Assembly (NCBI RefSeq): GCF_003570925.1
Contig: NZ_QXIS01000001.1
Span: 1 to 64,000 of the forward strand
Direction: 5' to 3'
DNA: 64,000 nucleotides
DNA from: Candidatus Cryosericum terrychapinii
Lineage (GTDB): Bacteria; Caldisericota; Caldisericia; Cryosericales; Cryosericaceae
Shown here: positions 37-54,820 of the stretch, one piece after another
Layout of the letters: each line of letters opens with the position of its first letter
How positions within the stretch are numbered: position 1 is the stretch's first letter
The notes under the pieces: generated by a model
What the model saw: only the letters and a program-made list of their open reading frames with translations
Databases searched by the model: none
Told to the model about the DNA's origin: nothing
Position numbers and translations under genes: made by a program

Positions 37-68
37 CCCCCGAGCACTTTTTCTCAATGCGAGGGGCG
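37..68 (+). repeat. Short repeat, family 2, copy 1
   Basis: This 32-bp stretch matches 54715-54746 closely: an identical 14-mer CCCCCGAGCACTTT, a variable six bases, then identical ATGCGAGGGG. Both copies are intergenic and GC-rich. Function unknown; a scattered intergenic repeat or a shared transcript-end structure are both possible. Confidence 0.5.
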
Positions 69-71
69 TTT

Positions 72-90
72 CCCCCTCACGGGGGTTTTT
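72..90 (+). terminator. Rho-independent terminator of an upstream gene
   Basis: A CCCCC/GGGGG stem with a four-base loop is followed directly by TTTTT. The gene it serves lies before the window. The rest of 1-219 holds repeat fragments, including GCGGGAACCCAGTCCTG at 108-124, which recurs with two changes at 49009-49025, but no gene. Confidence 0.6.
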
Positions 91-3200: not shown

Positions 3201-4338
3201 CATCCCCGGCGCGACAGCTTCGACCTATGTGGTTTCTCCCATCGACGGAGGGATGTATCTCGCGGTCCGTGTTACCTGTACGGACAATGGCGTAGGACTC
3301 CCTGCGACCATGAGCACGACCGTGGACAGTGCGTTCCTCTCTGCCAGGTCCCTCGATATGGTCCTTCCGACCATCGATCTTCCTGACTTCTTCTCCTGGC
3401 CCGGTGTGACCAGCTGGTCCGGTGCACCCGTTCAGACCTTTGTCGTGAACAGCTCTCCGTTCTCGCTCCAGTTCACACTGGAAGACAACAGCGGATCTGC
3501 GAAATGGACGATCAAGGTGAACGGCGTGGTCATTGTCGACCCCGTCGGGGCCGGCGTCATCACCTATCCCGTGCCGCTCTCAGAAGGTCGCAATGACGTC
3601 GAAATCAGTGCTTCCGATGCTTCAGGCAATACCGCCAGCGTGAAGCTGGCCATCTACCTGGACACCATGGGCCCGGTGCTGACCGTTGAACCTGCGCTTC
3701 CCTCCTCTGTCACGACCTCCCGGTTGACGATCGCCGGCAGCGTCGGGGATGCCGTTGCGGGTCTGAAGTGGGTGAGCATCAACGGAACAGCAGTGATACC
3801 TTACCTGGATGGTTCTTTCCAGGAGACGCTTACCCTCACGAGGGGAATCAACAGAATCCTCATCGAAGCCGAGGACAAGGCCGGACACACGGCAACAGCC
3901 ACCTACACGGTGACGTATGCCACGACCGCCCAGCCCCTGCCCGCTGCTACTGTCATCACGCTTACCATCGGCAGGACAAAGATGGATGTGAGCGGCAGGA
4001 CGGTTGCTCTTGATACGGCACCGGTCATCAAGGAGAGCAGGACCCTCCTGCCTCTGCGGGCACTTGTGCACGAACTGGGCGGCTCCATTGCCTGGAATGC
4101 CAAGACCCGTCAGGTCACAGTCAAAGCGCGTGGGGTCACCATGGTGCTGACCATCGGCAAGAACACGGCCACCGTGAGTGGCAAGAGCATCCTCATCGAT
4201 CCTGCCAACAGCAAGGTCGTCCCCATCATCCTTGGGGGCAGGACCTTCCTGCCCGTGCGGTTCATCGCCGAGCAGCTTGGTCTGGAGATCGGCTGGTATC
4301 CTCCCACGCGGACGATCACCATCACCTGGGAACCCTGA
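220..4338 (+). CDS. Giant secreted cadherin-like protein with C-type lectin and PF07833 stalk domains
   Basis: A 1372-residue exported protein. Residues 1-34 form a signal peptide (basic start, hydrophobic core, ASLAAPVSA). A cadherin-like unit begins near residue 37 and is interrupted by a C-type-lectin-like domain (about 115-263) with EPN (224-226) and WND (245-247), the residue pattern of sugar/calcium sites. Further Ig/cadherin-type repeats follow, joined by AVNDAP-type linkers. The last 130 residues hold two PF07833 stalk units (RTLLPLRALV and RTFLPVRFIAE). The final 330 residues closely match the end of the protein at 13982-17440. ATG 220 follows GGGGGAGAG; GTG 238 after AGGAAGAG is an in-frame alternative. 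Likely role: cell-surface adhesion or glycan binding; the ligand is unknown. Confidence 0.85.
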   Translation: MTSGRVVKRLFGKAIVALLAMLLCSASLAAPVSAVTAANDAYTTNEDIAVNCTVLTNDSGTGLRVDSTGTPGHGTANIVSGGGSITYTPNANWNGTDSFTYTVLQSANPYYSGTSHYYEFVSVPGGITWSAAQTAAAGKHLYGLQGYLVTITSDGEQNFVNTKLNGTTAWMGASDVSSEGTWCWVTGPEASTQFCTETGGGGYGNSTGGYTAVGSRYNNWNGGEPNNSGGDEDYGQFLGGSTGLWNDLSSTATVAGYVVEYGGMAGDPAAPVEVLTATVTVTVNAVNDAPVNTALPTVSGTMNVGDTLTATSGTWNDNLDMVPGTLSYEYVWQRADSTAGANLTVIPGANSSTYVIGTGSAHKYIRISVNCTDTGEGLPSSQSTFAYSAWSSQVANSLPIITEGASTSVTMSEDGSPTAFSLTLHATDVDGDTLTWSISSAASHGTATASGTGASKSIGYAVAANYNGSDSFVVRVSDTYGGTDDITVNVTITAVNDAPSFTKGGDQTAFEDTGLHTVVGWASAMSAGPADESSQTLAFNVTNDNNALFSVQPAINSGTGTLTYTLAADANGPTTVTVTLGDNGGTANGGVNTSPPQTFTITVTPVNDMPSFTKGADQTVLEDCGAQTVNPWATAISVGPANEIPQVLTFIATNNNNGLFSVQPAVDPATGILTYTPAANMNGVATVSLTLTDDATRGGAALTTAAQTFNITVTPVNDPPVNTAVPVISGIPHVGRTLATTDGVWNDLMDTSVSGTSALSYAYQWQRSTDGGTIFADIPGAVGPTYILTLADNLQPVRSKVTCTDDGVGLPLHQTTSELSTPVSVTILNAAPVITEGASVSTACDEDKSPVAFTFTLHATDSDAVDTLTWHILASPAHGTLTLPAPSVGMSIVPSFYHPASNWNGVDSFTLQVDDGLTGTATITVTVTVNPRNDAPVSTVHPGIAGSLFVNYEVRSVVGSWNDAIDTDVSGTSVLSYTYQWLRARDAAGTGLVLIPGATASTYVVSPIDGGMYLAVRVTCTDNGVGLPATMSTTVDSAFLSARSLDMVLPTIDLPDFFSWPGVTSWSGAPVQTFVVNSSPFSLQFTLEDNSGSAKWTIKVNGVVIVDPVGAGVITYPVPLSEGRNDVEISASDASGNTASVKLAIYLDTMGPVLTVEPALPSSVTTSRLTIAGSVGDAVAGLKWVSINGTAVIPYLDGSFQETLTLTRGINRILIEAEDKAGHTATATYTVTYATTAQPLPAATVITLTIGRTKMDVSGRTVALDTAPVIKESRTLLPLRALVHELGGSIAWNAKTRQVTVKARGVTMVLTIGKNTATVSGKSILIDPANSKVVPIILGGRTFLPVRFIAEQLGLEIGWYPPTRTITITWEP

Positions 4339-4391: not shown

Positions 4392-4445
4392 GCATGCACA
4401 GATGCTGTCAGCTTGCTACGAAATGTCTGTGTTCCCTGTTGGTGG

Positions 4446-4509
4446 AAGTGTTACAACAAACACGTCTGTCCCCTGTTACAGAAACGGAACCGTCCCGAGA
4501 GTGTTACAG
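4446..4509 (+). repeat. Short interspersed repeat, family 1, locus A
   Basis: TGTTACA occurs at 4449, 4474 and 4502, spaced 25-28 bases, with GGAACCGTCCCGAGAG between the last two. The same unit occurs at four other loci in the window. This copy lies just upstream of the EamA gene. Confidence 0.8.
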
Positions 4510-4541
4510 TCTCCGATGCTCTCGTCAGAGTGGAGTGTGAC

Positions 4542-4547
4542 TATACT
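4542..4547 (+). promoter_or_regulatory. -10 box TATACT very close to the EamA start
   Basis: TATACT lies only seven bases before ATG 4555, which would put the transcript start at or next to the start codon. No Shine-Dalgarno sequence precedes the ATG and no good -35 is visible. A leaderless transcript is the simplest reading. Confidence 0.4.
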
Positions 4548-4554
4548 GTACGGC

Positions 4555-5556
4555 ATGAGAGCAGCAGCGCGGCAGAAGAGTGGGGGTCGACCCGACATCC
4601 GGGCCTGGGCAGGGCTGATCCTGGCCGTGCTGGGCGTCTCTGGCACGTCGACGTATATGAAGCTGGCGGGAACCGATCCTCTTGTGACGGCGTTCTGGCG
4701 CTTAGCGCTGTCGACGCTCCTCCTGCTTCCGCTCCAAGTGTGGCGCAGGCGCAACACGCTCGCCAGGAATGGACCTGTCCCGAAGTGTAACACTGTTACA
4801 GAAACGGAACCCCCCAAGCCTTTCTGTTCAAGACGAGGGGTGGTTGTGTCCCGAAGCGTTACAATGCTGGCGGGCGCGTTCCTGGCTGTGCATTTCGCTC
4901 TGTGGGTGACGTCGCTGTCGATGACCTCCGTGTTGTCCTCGCTGGTATTCGTCACCATGACCCCGTTGTTTGTGGCTGTCCTGGACCTCGTCCTGTTTCG
5001 GGGACGTACCAGCCCTCTGCTGTGGGTGGCTGTCGGGGTCGTGACCGCGGGCGGTGTGTTCATTGGGCTGCGGTCCGGCACGGGCGCCAACCTCGGAAAC
5101 CTGCTGGCGCTCGGTGGGGCGCTGGCGTCGTCGCTGTATCTTATCGTCGGGCGCAGGGCGTCCCGGGAGATGGACCCTGTTTCCTACAATGTGGGCACGT
5201 TCGGTTGGGCCGCTGTCCTGACGGGGGTCGTGTGCGTTGTAGCTGGAAGGCCGCTCCTGGCGCTGTCGGGCACGTCGTTTCTGTGGCTCGCGGTGACCGC
5301 CGTCCTGGGACAAACCGTCGGCCACGGCCTCATCAATGCTTCGCTCAAGTCGTTTCAGCCGCAGTTCGTGGCGCTCATGCTGTTGTGGGAGCCAATTCTG
5401 GGCAGCCTGCTGGCGTTCCTGGTGCTGGGTGATCGGCCGGGTCCGGCCGAGCTTGTGGGAGGCGCCATCATTCTGGCCGGGCTGGCAGTGGGGATCGTTG
5501 TCAGCCGCCGCTCTGCTGCGGAAGGACCTGGGGGCGCTGAGGGTCAGCCACTGTAA
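4555..5556 (+). CDS. EamA/DMT-family transporter with an in-frame repeat insertion
   Basis: A 333-residue membrane protein with about ten hydrophobic segments, of the EamA drug/metabolite transporter family (usually near 300 residues, two five-helix halves). Residues 72-86 (reading GPVPKCNTVTETEP), between helix 2 and helix 3, are encoded by the family 1 repeat at 4771-4811, and residues 98-104 by a degenerate half copy. The insert adds polar residues to a loop and keeps the frame open, so the protein may still work. ATG 4555 is chosen because the longer frame runs through a terminator and a repeat. The gene overlaps the convergent psuK by 13 bp. Substrate unknown. Confidence 0.85.
   Translation: MRAAARQKSGGRPDIRAWAGLILAVLGVSGTSTYMKLAGTDPLVTAFWRLALSTLLLLPLQVWRRRNTLARNGPVPKCNTVTETEPPKPFCSRRGVVVSRSVTMLAGAFLAVHFALWVTSLSMTSVLSSLVFVTMTPLFVAVLDLVLFRGRTSPLLWVAVGVVTAGGVFIGLRSGTGANLGNLLALGGALASSLYLIVGRRASREMDPVSYNVGTFGWAAVLTGVVCVVAGRPLLALSGTSFLWLAVTAVLGQTVGHGLINASLKSFQPQFVALMLLWEPILGSLLAFLVLGDRPGPAELVGGAIILAGLAVGIVVSRRSAAEGPGGAEGQPL
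4771..4811 (+). repeat. Family 1 repeat inside the EamA coding region, locus B
   Basis: Reads GGACCTGTCCCGAAG, then TGTAACACTGTTACA, then GAAACGGAACC, the same parts as locus A plus an inverted TGTAACA/TGTTACA pair. A degenerate half copy (GTCCCGAAGCGTTACA) follows at about 4848-4863. Both lie in the gene without breaking its frame. Confidence 0.8.
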
Positions 5557-6449
5557 CCCAGGAGCTCCAGAGGTTGTGTTCCTGCCAGCTGCACCTTGGC
5601 GGCGCTGAAGCGCACGGCGGCTGTCAGCGCAATCGCGGGGTCTGACTTCGAGGCAAGCGCAGACAAAAAGGCGGCCGCGAAGGAGTCTCCCGCCCCAGTC
5701 ACGTCGACGGGCGTAAGGGCAACGCCAGGTGCCGTGATGATGCTCTGGTCACTGCAGAGGAGGGCACCTCGTGCGCCGAGCTTGACAACGATGGTTGCCC
5801 CAATCGATCGGTGGAGTGCTCTGGCTGCCTCCATCGCATCTGTCTCCTGTGTGAGCCAGCAGGCTTCCTCTTCGTTGGGCAACAGGTAGTCGCAGCATCG
5901 TGCCGCTGCAAGGACTGCGTCGCGGCCCATGGAGTTCATGGCGTCGATGCTGGCGGGATCCATGACGACGACCGGTCGTGTGGGGGCCGAACTTGTCAGC
6001 ACCGCCCCGAGTGCTGTTCGGCAACCCTCATCAAGCAGGCTGTACCCTGAGACGAACAGGAAGTCTCCAGCGGTCTTGCGCGCGCTGCGTACGAAGCGTA
6101 CGAATGCGGCTGGATCCACCGCTGCGTTGGCGCCTCGCTGACGGTACATGTGATAGGAGCCAGCCTCCTGGACGACGCTGACCATGCCTGTCGGAGTGTC
6201 GACGCGGTCTCCCGCGTATGCGATGCCGAGGCGCGCCAGGCGCACAGCATACAGGTCTCCTGCGACATCGGTCCCCAAGGTACCGAACAGTTGTACCGGC
6301 CGGCCCTGGCATCGCAGGAAGAAGGCGACATTGCCTCCCTGCCCCCCGCAGGACAACATAATGTCCGCCTGCGCTTCCTTTCCGGAAGGCGACAGGGCAG
6401 GCGCTACTGTCGTGGTGTCGATGTTGAGGTCACCCGTGACAAAGAACAT
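5544..6449 (-). CDS. psuK: PfkB-family sugar kinase, probably pseudouridine kinase
   Basis: A 301-residue ribokinase-fold protein. The N-terminal MFFVTGDLNID, the GGQGGN glycine motif near residue 35 and the catalytic DVTGAGDSFAAAF motif near residue 250 define the PfkB family. The neighbour 11 bp upstream is pseudouridine-5'-phosphate glycosidase, so the likely reaction is ATP-dependent phosphorylation of pseudouridine to pseudouridine 5'-phosphate, feeding the glycosidase. The family alone does not fix the substrate; ribokinase or another nucleoside kinase is possible. Last gene of a three-gene minus-strand operon. Confidence 0.8.
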   Translation of the reverse strand: MFFVTGDLNIDTTTVAPALSPSGKEAQADIMLSCGGQGGNVAFFLRCQGRPVQLFGTLGTDVAGDLYAVRLARLGIAYAGDRVDTPTGMVSVVQEAGSYHMYRQRGANAAVDPAAFVRFVRSARKTAGDFLFVSGYSLLDEGCRTALGAVLTSSAPTRPVVVMDPASIDAMNSMGRDAVLAAARCCDYLLPNEEEACWLTQETDAMEAARALHRSIGATIVVKLGARGALLCSDQSIITAPGVALTPVDVTGAGDSFAAAFLSALASKSDPAIALTAAVRFSAAKVQLAGTQPLELLGYSG

Positions 6450-6460
6450 GGGACCAGCGA

Positions 6461-7474
6461 TCAGCGGAGCTTCAGCAGGGTGGCGATCTGTGTCCCCAGC
6501 GCGACGTTGCTCTTGATCAGGGCGATGTTGGCCTCAATGACGCCGGGCAGGTTCTTCTGCATGTAGGCCAGGATGTATGGCGTCATCGCCTTGCCCTCGA
6601 CGCCCTCTTCCGCAGCCTTCTTGAGCGCTGCCTGAAGGACCTTCTCGTGCTTTGCCGGGTCGACCTGGTCACTCTCGGCGATCGGGTTGGTGACGAGGAT
6701 CCCGGTGTCGAGCTTCAGACGGTCGCGTGCCTCCACGATGGCTGCGATGTCCGATGCGCTCTCGACGCGGTGCTCGAGCGGGATGCCGGAATCGCGTACG
6801 TAGAAGGCGGGCAGGGTGTCGGTCTGGTAGCCCAGGACGAGGATGGACATCGTCTCGAGGTACTCCAGCGTATTCCTCAGATCCAGGATGGACTTGGCAC
6901 CTGCACACACGGTGATGCAGCGAGCTCGCCCGATCACGGGCAGGTCCTGTGAGATGTCGAGGACCTCGCTCACGCCGCGGTGCACGCCGCCGATGCCACC
7001 GGTGACAAAGACGCGAATGCCTGCCGCGTCGGCGATGTGCAACGACGCAGCGACGGTCGTGCCTCCGCTGAATCCCATGGCAACGGCGACGGGGATGTCG
7101 CGGGGTCCGATCTTCTTGACCCACTTGGCCCGAGCGAGCATCTCGAGTTCAGACCTGGAGAGGCCCACGCGGATCTTGCCCGAAACCAGGGCAGTCGTGG
7201 CCGGGATTCCTCCGCCCTTGCGGACGATGCCCTCGAGCTCCTGTGCCAGTTCGAGGTTGATCGGGTACGGCATGCCATGGGTGATGATGGCAGACTCGAG
7301 GGCGACGACGGGCGTTCCCTTGCGGAGAGCCTCCTGGACTTCCTCGGCGATGACGAACTCTTCCAGATAGGTCTCGCCGCGCCTGGCTCCCTCGGCGAAC
7401 CCCTTGGTGACGCTGCTGCCGGTCTTGTGCCCGGTCAGCTGATCATGTTCGCTGCGCTGTGCTCTTCTCGCCAT
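6461..7474 (-). CDS. psuG: Pseudouridine-5'-phosphate glycosidase
   Basis: A 337-residue cytoplasmic enzyme of the PsuG family, which cleaves the C-C glycosidic bond of pseudouridine 5'-phosphate to uracil and ribose 5-phosphate. Conserved stretches include [14 protein letters not shown], the [11 protein letters not shown] segment and [12 protein letters not shown]. The family is usually just over 300 residues; a short charged N-terminal tail precedes the conserved part here. ATG 7474 is chosen because GGAG stands ten bases upstream; the longer frame would extend far into the HD-GYP gene. Its start overlaps the end of the HD-GYP gene by 32 bp, suggesting translational coupling. Together with the PfkB kinase it makes a complete pseudouridine breakdown route. 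Confidence 0.93.
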
Positions 7475-8078
7475 GATGGGCTCCACTGAAGTGTGTTGTG
7501 GCCAGAAAGGCTTCCACGACAACCGGGTCGAACTGCGATCCGGCGCACCGCGCCACTTCCGCGGCAGCCATGTCGGGCTGTGCGCCATGCCGATACACGC
7601 GCGCAGTCACCATGGCATCGAACGAGTCAGCCACCGCGAGGATGCGTCCACCCAACGGGATGGCCGTGCCGGCCGTTCCATGAGGATAGCCTGCACCGTC
7701 GTATCGTTCATGATGGGACTCGATGATGTCACAGACGTCAGAGAAGCCGGGGACCCGCCCGATGACGGCAGAACCGTACTCGGCGTGCTTGCGCATGATG
7801 GCAAATTCCTCTTCGGTGAGGAAGTCCTGTTTGAGCAGGATCTGTGCGGGAATGAAGGCTTTGCCCAGATCATGAAGCAACGCCGCGACGCGGAGGGTTT
7901 CGAGGTTGTCCTCGGACAGGTGAAGGGCGACCCCCATGGGGACGGCAAGTTGGGCAACACGATAGGAATGCGTGAGCGTAAAGTTATCGGTACGCTCGAG
8001 CACCTCCAGCAGCGCTCCCACAACGCCTTCTCTCATGCCCCCGCTGAGTGTCTGTTCGAGCAGGAGTTCAGGGCTCAT
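7443..8078 (-). CDS. HD-GYP domain phosphodiesterase
   Basis: A 211-residue protein consisting almost wholly of an HD-GYP domain: [12 protein letters not shown] carries the HD metal ligands and [12 protein letters not shown] the second His pair and the GYP signature. HD-GYP proteins usually hydrolyse cyclic di-GMP. There is no receiver, PAS or membrane segment, so the input signal is not visible. ATG 8078 is preferred; a TTG at 8162 in the same frame would add 28 unlikely residues but sits beside the predicted transcript start. It heads the operon with psuG and psuK, an unusual partnership. Confidence 0.85.
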
Positions 8079-48023: not shown

Positions 48024-48100
48024 GGCGGCGTAGCTCAGTTGGTTAGAGCATTCGGCTCATACCCGGAGTGTCGAGGGTTCGAATCCCCCCGCCGCCACCA
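48024..48100 (+). tRNA. tRNA-Met (anticodon CAT)
   Basis: A 77-base gene with encoded CCA. Acceptor GGCGGCG/CGCCGCC pairs fully, so it is not the initiator type, which has a mismatched first pair. The anticodon stem TTCGG/CCGGA frames loop CTCATAC, anticodon CAT at 58-60. The T stem GAGGG/CCCCC has one A-C mismatch. CAT could also mark a lysidine-modified tRNA-Ile; the elongator Met reading is preferred. Confidence 0.92.
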
Positions 48101-48152
48101 CTGTAACACTCTCGGGACGGTTCCATAACTGTAACACTCTCGGGACGGTTCC
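48101..48152 (-). repeat. Family 1 repeat, locus C, two tandem units abutting tRNA-Met
   Basis: Two identical 24-base units (48101-48124 and 48129-48152), on the minus strand reading GGAACCGTCCCGAGAG then TGTTACAG, 28 bases apart. The first begins at the very base after the tRNA CCA end, as expected if this was a target or junction. Confidence 0.85.
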
Positions 48153-48983
48153 AAACTTCGACTTCCCTGCCGTGACCCCTCTGGGGAAGACGAACTCTTG
48201 CAAGTACTGTCTAGTAGTCAGGTTCGATTCTTCCCAGAACGATCCCAAGTCTCCCAGGATTTCGAAACCTCGCTTGAGAACCTCAGGTGTATCGAGAGCT
48301 GAATCTGCCACCAGAGCAAGCTGGCATTTGAGGACTTCTTCCTCCGCTGAAGCCTTCTCAAGCCATTCTTTCACCATCGCGTCTGGAATTACGTGATGGA
48401 TGCTCTTCTGGATGATTGTTTCATTCTCCTGCTTCAAAAACACGATCCTGCTTTTCACCCTGTTTCTCTCGTCTCTAACCCATTTCCGGTGCAGCTTGGA
48501 CTGGACTCGGTAGAAGACGTCGTCAGAGACGATCGGATCGAAATCACCTCGTACGGCTCGTGCGAACGACACGACGTAGTCGACATAGACCTTGTTCATC
48601 AGCATCGACCGGAAGGTGTTGCGGCTCAGTTCGTGCCCGGTACGACACGTAAGGCCCTCACTCCTGATCTGCTGGAGTGCTTTGGTGACCGTGAGCCCGG
48701 CGTCGATCAACCCAAACGATCTCTGAATCAGCGAAACAGTACGTGACTCGTCCAATTCAAGGCTCCGAATGCCCTTCACTCTGCCATTCACATATCGCAG
48801 GGAAGCTAGCCAGATGTAGCGACCCGCTTCCACGGTCGCAATCATGCCCTCCGTGCAGTTGTCGATGCGCTTCTCGTTGTCGCATTGAGCTTCGGTGGCA
48901 ACCAGGTGTCGAGAGATATCCTTGTCCTGGAGCCGAACTAGTACGCACGCAAACGGGGGCACCTGCATGGCAAGAATTCCCAT
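48153..48983 (-). pseudogene. Truncated large serine recombinase
   Basis: About 277 residues survive. Near the start is the hinge after the catalytic domain (EKRIDNCTEGMIATVEAGRY), then the recombinase domain (ELSRNTFRSMLMNKVYVDYV ... FDPIVSDDVFYRVQSKL) and a coiled-coil tail. The resolvase catalytic domain (about 130-150 residues with the active serine) is missing: the frame is cut off near 48983 where a short repeat fragment begins. At the other end there is no proper stop; the frame runs through the repeats into the antisense of tRNA-Met. It is therefore a dead remnant of an integrated element next to a tRNA gene. Confidence 0.75.
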
Positions 48984-50071: not shown

Positions 50072-52465
50072 ATGAAGAAATTCCTATCTTTGTTTGTAGC
50101 CCTTGCCATGGTGCTTAGCCTGTTCGCAGGCGTCGGCACCCGTACGGCGAAGGCAGCTGCAACCCTGACGGCCACACCCTCCGGTGCGACGTTCACGGGT
50201 GGCGCAGATATTGTCACTGGTGTTCACGGTCTCGCTACAGTAACTCTTCTCTCACCTCTCACGGTGACCATCGACACACCTGCCGTGGAAACCTTTTCTG
50301 GGATGAACGTAAGTATCCAGACACGTACGGCTGCGGCACTCGCGGCGACAACTGATACTGGATTCGCGGGTACAGATGGCTCGACAGCAGTTGTGATCGT
50401 TAGCAGCACTGCCAACGTGTTCGTTGGCGATGTCATTAGGACAGACGCCGCCACCAACGGGTTGTTTACAGTCGCCAGTATTATCGATGCGACAACGATG
50501 AGTATTGCCATTACTCATCATGCTGTTGGCACAATTACTGGAATCTTTCTGGATGCGACTGAGCCTAATTACGCGGCTACCACTGCTGATCCTAACTTCA
50601 AGGCTACAGGCAGCCAGACCGTCACGTTGAGCTCTCCCACTGGAAATCTTCATGTGGGCGATCAGGTGAAGGTTACGATGGTTAATACACCCGCCGTCTC
50701 GGCTACCGCTTCTGTTGCCATTGGAGGCACCGTCACTGCTGGCAATGTAGTCACGGTTACCGTCGGGGCAACAGCATACCCCTATACGGCTCTCAGCACG
50801 TCTACGACAGCTACCATTGCCTCCGCGCTTGCGGCTTTGATTAACGGCACTACCTATGGCGCGACAGCGACTGGCTCTGTGACCACTATCACAGTGACAA
50901 CGCCTGGCGTTGCCGGCAATGCGACCACTCTTGCTGCGACCGTCGCAGAGGGTGTCACTACTGCCCTGACGATTCATACGCTTGGTGGACTGACTTCACC
51001 AGCCTATGTTGAAAACAGCAAGACTATTCAGCTGGTCGCAGTCGATCGGACTGGTGCGGTTGTCAGTCCTGTATGGACGTTTAGCGGCTCGTCAGTCACG
51101 GGCGTTGCTGGTGGACTGGTGACAGCGCATGCCGCCGCCACAGGTCCCTCTGTGGTCGCTGCCACACTTAGTGGTATCAGTGCTCAGTTTGTGGTGAATG
51201 TCATTCCTGCAGGGACAATCACCAGCCTTGCGGTTACTCCAGCCACTGCCAACCTGGCCGTGTCTTCTTCTGGAATGCAGCAGTTCAGTGCTATTGCTGT
51301 GAGTGCAGCGTACAGTGCGTTGGATTATACAACGCAGGTAACCTGGTTAGACGACCTTGGTGTTGCTAGTGTTTCTAACGCTGCACCTACGCAGGGTCTT
51401 CTGACATACTCATCGGCTGAATCTGGCCACGTTTATGCTCTTTTTATCCCTAGTGGTTTCTTTGGCATGGCCACCGTCACCATCGGTACGGCAGGCTCTG
51501 TTTCCCCCACCACCGGAGCTGTCACGAGTGTGACGTCGACCGGTGCGACACTGCATGGTACGACTGGCACTTCCGCTCCTACAGCTAGCTTCTTCCAGTA
51601 TGGGACGACGTCTGTCGGCCCCTGGACTCTAGCTACAGCGGATCCAGCTGTCGCCACTGCCAATACTGCATTTACTGCTACACTCACCGGCCTTACGGCT
51701 GGTCAGCTTTACTACTTCAGGGCAGCGAACACGGTTGCAGGCGTGGACACTTTTGGCAGCGTCCTGACCTTCACGACAACGGCAGGCTCTGTTTCCCCGA
51801 CCACCGGAGCTGTCACGAGTGTGACATCGACTGGTGCGACACTGAATGGTACGACTGGCACTCCCGCTCCTACGGAGAGTTTCTTCCAGTATGGAACGAC
51901 GTCTGTCGGCCCCTGGACCAAAGTTACAGCAAGTCCAGCTGTTATCACTGCCAATACTGCATTCACTGCTACACTCACCGGCCTTACGGCTGGTCAGCCT
52001 TACTACGTCAGGGCAGCGAACACGGTTGCAGGCGTGGACACTTTTGGCAGCGTCCTGACCTTCACGACAACGGCAGCTGCAGCTGCGGTCAAGATAGTCA
52101 TCGTCCTGACCATTCGTATCAACATTGTGACCGTTGACGGCAAGGCTACCTCTATTGATGCTGCTCCTGAAATCGTCAACGGCAGCACCTTCGTTCCGAT
52201 TCGCTTCATCGCTGAGACCTTTGGCTCTACGGTTGAGTGGCTCCCTGAGAGCCGGGGCATCACCCTTGGCCACCCCACCATTGGCCTTCAGATCGGCAAG
52301 GCAACCGTAGTCATCAATGGCAACACCATCGCTCTGGAGGCTGCTCCGTACATCAAGAACAGTCGCACGATGGTTCCTCTCCGCGTCATCTCCGAGTCAT
52401 TCGGCGGCGATGTGGTCTGGGATGCTACTGTCGGCACCATCACCATCTCCTACATGCTCCCGTAG
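50072..52465 (+). CDS. Second S-layer-like surface protein with PF07833 pair
   Basis: A 797-residue exported protein, signal peptide MKKFLSLFVALAMVLSLFAG nearly identical to that at 31613. The Ala/Thr/Val-rich body has no cysteine clusters. Residues about 475-668 are two almost identical 97-residue FN3-like units (SPTTGAVTSVTSTGATL ... SFFQYGTTSVGPW) in tandem. The end carries two PF07833 units (STFVPIRFIAETFG, RTMVPLRVISESFG), closest to those of the 31613 protein; the first lacks a few residues before LGHPTIGLQIG. Third codon positions hold more T than in neighbours. ATG 50072 follows AAAGGAG. It lies inside the region that breaks an old gene order, so it may be a later arrival. Confidence 0.82.
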   Translation: MKKFLSLFVALAMVLSLFAGVGTRTAKAAATLTATPSGATFTGGADIVTGVHGLATVTLLSPLTVTIDTPAVETFSGMNVSIQTRTAAALAATTDTGFAGTDGSTAVVIVSSTANVFVGDVIRTDAATNGLFTVASIIDATTMSIAITHHAVGTITGIFLDATEPNYAATTADPNFKATGSQTVTLSSPTGNLHVGDQVKVTMVNTPAVSATASVAIGGTVTAGNVVTVTVGATAYPYTALSTSTTATIASALAALINGTTYGATATGSVTTITVTTPGVAGNATTLAATVAEGVTTALTIHTLGGLTSPAYVENSKTIQLVAVDRTGAVVSPVWTFSGSSVTGVAGGLVTAHAAATGPSVVAATLSGISAQFVVNVIPAGTITSLAVTPATANLAVSSSGMQQFSAIAVSAAYSALDYTTQVTWLDDLGVASVSNAAPTQGLLTYSSAESGHVYALFIPSGFFGMATVTIGTAGSVSPTTGAVTSVTSTGATLHGTTGTSAPTASFFQYGTTSVGPWTLATADPAVATANTAFTATLTGLTAGQLYYFRAANTVAGVDTFGSVLTFTTTAGSVSPTTGAVTSVTSTGATLNGTTGTPAPTESFFQYGTTSVGPWTKVTASPAVITANTAFTATLTGLTAGQPYYVRAANTVAGVDTFGSVLTFTTTAAAAAVKIVIVLTIRINIVTVDGKATSIDAAPEIVNGSTFVPIRFIAETFGSTVEWLPESRGITLGHPTIGLQIGKATVVINGNTIALEAAPYIKNSRTMVPLRVISESFGGDVVWDATVGTITISYMLP
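51494..52075 (+). repeat. Tandem duplication of a 291-bp FN3-like unit
   Basis: Two copies, 51494-51784 and 51785-52075, nearly identical at DNA level including silent positions, coding for 97 residues each. The near identity points to recent duplication or gene conversion. Confidence 0.85.
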
Positions 52466-52532: not shown

Positions 52533-52692
52533 GCATTTCCGTGCCAATGCCTTCTGTACGCCATCGGCCTTTTGCGCTTTGCCGCCAACACCGTCGGCAA
52601 CATCGAGTGCATGGAATCTGCTGCCGGAACACTCACTCACCGATTTGTGGCCGGGCACCAGGAGCAAGGGCTAGCTCAGCCGTTATTGGAGA

Positions 52693-52763
52693 CTGTTACA
52701 CTAATGGAACCGTCCCGAAGTGTAACAGTGTTACAGTTTGGAACCGTCCCGAGAATGTTACAC
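52693..52763 (+). repeat. Family 1 repeat, locus D, two units with inverted centre
   Basis: TGTTACA (52694), GGAACCGTCCCGAAG, TGTAACA (52721), TGTTACA (52729), GGAACCGTCCCGAGAA, TGTTACA (52756). The inverted TGTAACA/TGTTACA centre also occurs at locus B. Lies downstream of pepF; a CACCCCGG/CCGGGGTG hairpin (52761-52793) separates it from the pepF stop. Confidence 0.85.
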
Positions 52764-54714: not shown

Positions 54715-54746
54715 CCCCCGAGCACTTTACTCCCATGCGAGGGGTG
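54715..54746 (+). repeat. Short repeat, family 2, copy 2
   Basis: Second copy of the element at 37-68, with identical CCCCCGAGCACTTT and ATGCGAGGGG blocks. Lies between pepF and murJ, 33 bases from a family 1 repeat. Confidence 0.5.
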
Positions 54747-54778
54747 CTTCTGAGGGGCGCTTCTCCGCGCGCCCCCTC

Positions 54779-54820
54779 GAGAGTGTTACAGATTTGGAAC
54801 CGTCCCGAGAGTGTTACACT
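54779..54820 (+). repeat. Family 1 repeat, locus E
   Basis: TGTTACA (54784), GGAACCGTCCCGAGAG, TGTTACA (54812), 28 bases apart. Lies 160 bp upstream of murJ. Confidence 0.85.

Follow-up and report, generated by a model that had tools for sequence, protein, structure and literature searches.

The stretch of DNA analysed here, referred to as the window, comprises 64,000 nt of Candidatus Cryosericum terrychapinii and contains at 4555-5556, on the forward strand, a gene of the EamA/DMT transporter family encoding 333 amino acids, with the start codon placed by ortholog alignment and the product assigned to the EamA domain PF00892 (Pfam, 91 bits, E 8.5e-26). The low-confidence predicted model of this protein matches by Foldseek the DMT structures, including YddG (5i20), with which the transporter would share the ten-helix DMT fold besides the Pfam family; unlike in other EamA/DMT transporters, its TM2-TM3 loop is enlarged by an in-frame insert of 117 nt, or 39 codons (4750-4866, forward strand; residues 66-104). 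The insert holds the left part of a repeat designated family 1, GGACCTGTCCCGAAGTGTAACACTGTTACAGAAACGGAACC (4771-4811, forward), recognised by BLAST and as a weak profile hit, then a family-2 palindrome of exactly 36 nt (4812-4847, forward), nested within family 1 between GGAACC and GTCCCGA, and then the right remnant of family 1, GTCCCGAAGCGTTACAATG (4848-4866, forward), delimited from the sequence and the ortholog alignment and carrying an in-frame ATG at 4864. In BLAST against the own genome the segment 4771-4866 matched contig C10 at 5214 (E 2e-8) and the window at 52706 (E 1e-5), and 48 of 49 bases of the EamA family-1/family-2 composite are identical to a composite elsewhere in C. hinesii. 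The in-frame insertion of repeat DNA in the Cryosericum EamA is, on the strength of these sequence matches, genuine, and the initial annotation, which had placed a repeat in frame between TM2 and TM3, is borne out by BLAST, Pfam and the model; its figure of about 15 added residues was too low, the insert having 39 residues with family 2 nested inside. In the model (pLDDT 56, seven sequences, low confidence) helices were predicted at residues 42-71 and 100-123 with nothing structured between them, the insert being modelled as unstructured.

The comparison covered the own genome (G000, a MAG of 1.49 Mb in 37 contigs, 81% complete) and, as close relatives, C. hinesii, C. odellii, C. septentrionale and 14 genus genomes, the genus data being incomplete MAGs. 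Six EamA orthologs were compared, namely those of the own genome, C. hinesii, C. odellii, C. septentrionale, the genome G013 and a Lac Pavin MAG (L054), and repeat-derived DNA was found at the TM2-TM3 site in all six, with the insert lengths of 81, 117, 150, 150, 165 and 81 nt in the ortholog alignment, all multiples of three. Cryosericum proteins have 41-69 residues from the conserved TM2 proline to the TM3 histidine (41 in C. septentrionale, 53 in the own protein, 64 in C. hinesii and C. odellii, 69 in G013), and the corresponding stretch measures 25-31 residues in 18 class-level homologs. An alignment of relatives over the loop at residues 72-104 had been proposed as a check on the repeat, and the segment proved to be absent from 18 of the 18 homologs of the same class. 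Since no empty allele occurs among the six genus orthologs, the original insertion event is visible only against distant relatives. In the G013 gene (L025), a third repeat, read as VIPAQAGIHP, stands in place of family 2.

The coding frame of the insert is free of stops in all six orthologs; however, one reverse frame is likewise open in the six species, so that openness alone proves little, and it was rejected as proof of coding. The dN/dS values of the EamA orthologs were 0.05-0.20 on the 5' side of the insert and 0.06-0.23 on the 3' side, where the downstream-frameshifted Pavin gene gives only 22 codons to the comparison, and the low values on both sides indicate that both ends of one EamA protein are kept. 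Substitutions within the insert were about 2 synonymous and 8 nonsynonymous, those of the flanks 100 and 39 (Fisher p 0.0016; the counts, taken from two pairs, are small and rounded). What is conserved of the EamA insert is its frame and not its sequence, and purifying selection acts on the flanks only. In the Pavin gene (L054:2733-3622) about 73 nt are missing 3' of the insert and the frame is shifted; it is either a pseudogene or an assembly error. The C-part of the own gene is nearest to that of C. septentrionale (dS 0.18), yet the own insert resembles that of C. hinesii, a mismatch in affinity that suggests recombination, or loss in one lineage.

The core of family 1, GGAACCGTCCCGA, occurs in 16 exact copies in the own genome and in about 18 copies by profile, in scans that left out about 4.7 kb of contig ends; the other genus genomes contain 0-16 exact copies, and a single stray match was found among 34 other genomes of the class. 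In the window, profile hits of family 1 lie upstream of the EamA start (4472-4510, forward, E 2.4e-11), in two copies flanked by a tRNA gene and a recombinase remnant (48100-48166, reverse; Pfam Recombinase in the ORF), in two intergenic copies (52685-52763, forward) and upstream of murJ (54775-54819, forward, E 1.3e-14). It had been supposed that open frames read through the copies at the last-named gene and at the recombinase remnant, but the latter copy forms merely the C-terminal tail of a degenerate ORF beside the tRNA gene, and the codon usage upstream of murJ is non-coding. On contig C10 of the own genome, the copies at 4232 and 4295 (reverse) are followed by a REP-associated tyrosine transposase (RAYT) gene at 4428-4748 and by the copies at 5214 and 5249 (forward), and a RAYT stands between inverted family-1 copies in five genomes (G000, G003, G007, G008 and G011). 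The flanked transposase passes the NCBIfam model REP_Tyr_transpos NF047646 with 83.8 bits at the cut-off of 80 and carries the HYH motif, as expected for HUH enzymes. From the inverted flanking copies and the NCBIfam assignment, family 1 is classed as a RAYT-linked REP, the movement of which would be driven by the RAYT.

In the REPtron arrangement, the gene of a Y1 HUH transposase is flanked by inverted REPs whose copies are dispersed in the genome (PMC2817692, PMC8266576), and family 1 is similar in its inverted copies around the RAYT and in the further dispersed ones. It differs from the REPtron by the low copy number, about 16-18 in the own genome, which falls short of the more than 100 copies per genome that count as high abundance, by a hairpin that may be weak (z -2.23 and -0.80 in the two copies folded), and by the absence of the GTAG tetranucleotide from the copies flanking the own RAYT and from 16 aligned family-1 copies. 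Among 115 family-1 clusters of the genus, collected as all the exact-core copies plus profile hits, with a bias to the exact core, EamA was the sole clear gene insertion, with the coding signal on both sides and in one frame. Two higher-scoring spanning frames were rejected, one lying opposite better-scoring ORFs on the other strand (G000, contig C34) and the other in the homologous place (L198).

Family 2 was found by profile scan at 13 loci of the own genome, five of them in genes, the EamA copy making six, and outside this genome a sample of 30 loci was taken; it is absent from the 34 other class genomes. The window contains, besides the EamA copy, the profile hits at 37-72 (forward, intergenic) and 54715-54750 (forward, upstream of murJ, with non-coding codon usage around); the comparison of the intergenic murJ region among genomes met too much rearrangement for clean empty sites. 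In eight of the nine family-1/family-2 composites, three of which are EamA orthologs, exactly 36 nt of family 2 lie between GGAACC and GTCCCGA with the same junctions. Units of 36 nt nested in family 1 occur outside genes too, by which the length seems intrinsic to the element and not only the outcome of selection on genes, while the intergenic arrays include partial copies and the unit is not always intact. Family 2 is nested also in the third, REP-like repeat CATTCCC...GCGGGAATCC (L169, L051, L052, L072 and L369), and palindromes may thus be preferred targets for it. The unit corresponds to 12 codons, with most of its six frames open, so the preservation of frame may be largely due to the element length. 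Family 2 was not assigned to a RAYT, a nearby copy being found at only one RAYT locus (L089).

Beyond EamA, family 2 was found in three protein families, namely the MtaB-like methylthiotransferases, the Bax-inhibitor-like membrane protein Bax1-I and the hybrid histidine kinases. The genic loci of the own genome besides EamA are four hybrid histidine kinases, with the element in the last hairpin of the ATPase domain (C4:47432-47538, C27:31530-31587, C35:47082-47115 and C36:12782-12811), and one MtaB-like gene containing it in frame (C1:102364-102453, L317); L337 and L338 belong with this locus to the MtaB-like and Bax1-I insertions, Bax1-I having come from the sample of 30 loci of other genomes. 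The MtaB-like protein scores below the NCBIfam equivalog cut-off for MtaB and above that of the MiaB/RimO subfamily, and its insert measures 0 nt in seven genomes, 36 nt in three, and 108 nt in the own genome and G003, whereas Bax1-I has 72 nt in G013 and G007 and is empty in eight others. In the kinases the empty hairpin is 37 residues long, the 12 filled ones have 49, 61 or 73, in each case 37 plus a multiple of 12, and one divergent sequence has 41; these kinases mix paralogs with orthologs, so that not all the empty members are strict empty sites. In the C35 kinase and its G008 homolog the element has the opposite orientation, and some kinase copies have tryptophan where the same frame of other copies has TGA. 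Inheritance of the kinase insert lengths along the gene tree was not supported. Peptide is thus predicted to be added to a transporter, sensor kinases, a tRNA-modifying enzyme and a membrane protein, often in 12-residue steps. Repeat copies inside further coding genes, which the initial annotation proposed to count, were found for family 2 and not for family 1, where EamA is the only clear case; the proposed likeness to the Rickettsia palindromic elements was upheld by family 2, which is inserted without a frame change in three protein families unrelated to one another, two of which have empty alleles in siblings.

With a probability of about 0.85, the EamA insert would consist of stacked, non-autonomous palindromic elements of small size, acquired in the Cryosericum ancestor, translated and near-neutral. 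Palindromic elements would have entered the gene in the ancestor of these species, family 1 being presumably mobilised by its RAYT, and family 2 may enter family 1 (GGAACC^GTCCCGA), the third REP-like repeat, or genes directly. Because of the 12-codon unit and the mostly open frames, an insertion or an added copy would tend to keep the frame, and insertions into genes may persist in exposed loops or hairpins that can accommodate additional residues. The inserted peptide is probably near-neutral ballast and not a part conserved for its function, as the substitution pattern suggests from small counts. More tentatively, with something short of an even chance, family 2 may be a natural in-frame peptide-insertion agent of fixed 36 nt, reshaping the loops of several proteins genus-wide in single-unit steps.

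The opposite idea, that the segment belongs to the ordinary coding sequence of the ancestor and resembles the repeat by chance, could appeal to the profile E-value of the EamA family-1 copy, which by itself reaches only 0.018, but it can practically be discarded in view of the BLAST matches to other copies and the 48 of 49 bases shared with another composite; an ancestral or chance loop is refuted by the class-level alignment, the segment being absent in 18 relatives. Very improbable is also a split gene, with TM1-TM2 separate or dead and translation re-initiated at the ATG of 4864-4866 to give an eight-helix protein, for the purifying selection on TM1-TM2 is as strong as on the rest and the frame is held across 81-165 nt, which re-initiation does not need; the in-frame ATG that closes the insert in the own gene, C. 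hinesii, C. odellii and G013, as the split would have it, is missing there in C. septentrionale and the Pavin MAG. Retention in six of six orthologs with no empty genus allele would agree with co-option of the insert, either as a loop peptide or as an encoded RNA structure with a selected function; however, its length and sequence vary widely among the species, the changes are mostly nonsynonymous, and the insert DNA folds no better than shuffles (z -0.21), which makes such a function unlikely.

As to the manner in which the in-gene arrays have grown, it is possible, with the odds leaning against it, that slippage, recombination or gene conversion were mainly responsible and not a fresh transposition for every unit. 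The tandem 36-nt units in MtaB and in one kinase, the variation of kinase insert lengths inside a well supported clade, and the own EamA with its C-part nearest C. septentrionale and its insert like that of C. hinesii are in line with such growth, while the opposite orientation of the element in one kinase and the recurrence of nested insertion at one exact site in separate loci speak against it.

Intragenic REPs of the GTAG/CGTC type were described in O. terrae, Thauera, Thioalkalivibrio, R. conorii and others, encoding about 20-80 residues and occurring single, grouped or, commonly, as dimers, with the listed gene being in some species the only REP-bearing coding sequence (PMC3733652). The Cryosericum repeats, lying wholly inside real genes with the frame open in EamA and, for family 2, in MtaB, Bax1-I and histidine kinases, are similar to them as short palindromes mostly intergenic and in some cases in frame within unrelated genes. 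They differ by the family 1 without GTAG, the 36-nt quantised inserts, the different phylum, the nesting of families in a gene, and the presence of both filled and empty alleles among sibling species. The Rickettsia palindromic elements (RPEs), of about 150 bp and several families (Ogata 2000, 2002, reviewed in PMC10969869), are likewise repeats inserted in frame into a number of protein genes that are not related, the orthologs being either empty or filled, and Cryosericum has four protein families with in-frame inserts, both repeat families counted. The 36-nt family 2 and the RAYT-linked family 1 are unlike the elements of about 150 bp in that account, the likeness being one of behaviour. 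As read from the genomes, Cryosericum thus shows, in a phylum unrelated to Rickettsia, a phenomenon like that of the RPEs. Already known are the intragenic REPs and RPEs; Cryosericum adds a new lineage, inserts quantised at 36 nt, the in-gene nesting and the allele series, and of the 12 Cryosericum papers listed by the literature search none is, judged by its subject, about repeats.

Rickettsia and a small number of genomes rich in REPs have supplied most examples of selfish palindromes translated within proteins, and Cryosericum adds an unrelated, uncultured permafrost lineage. Here one and the same gene may be empty, partly filled or filled in close relatives, and the 36-nt unit gives a simple arithmetic reason helping the frame survive. 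The alleles of the tRNA enzyme, the membrane protein and the kinase hairpin allow a test of the old question if inserts of this kind are passengers of no effect or material from which new protein parts are made.

Elsewhere in the window, 51488-52069 is occupied by two tandem direct repeats of 291 nt, 92% identical. The 3' end of the EamA gene is overlapped by 13 bases by a PfkB-family kinase gene within 5544-7588 on the opposite strand, after which a gene read from its sequence as a likely pseudouridine-5'-phosphate glycosidase is situated, and the cargo of the EamA transporter might be a nucleoside.
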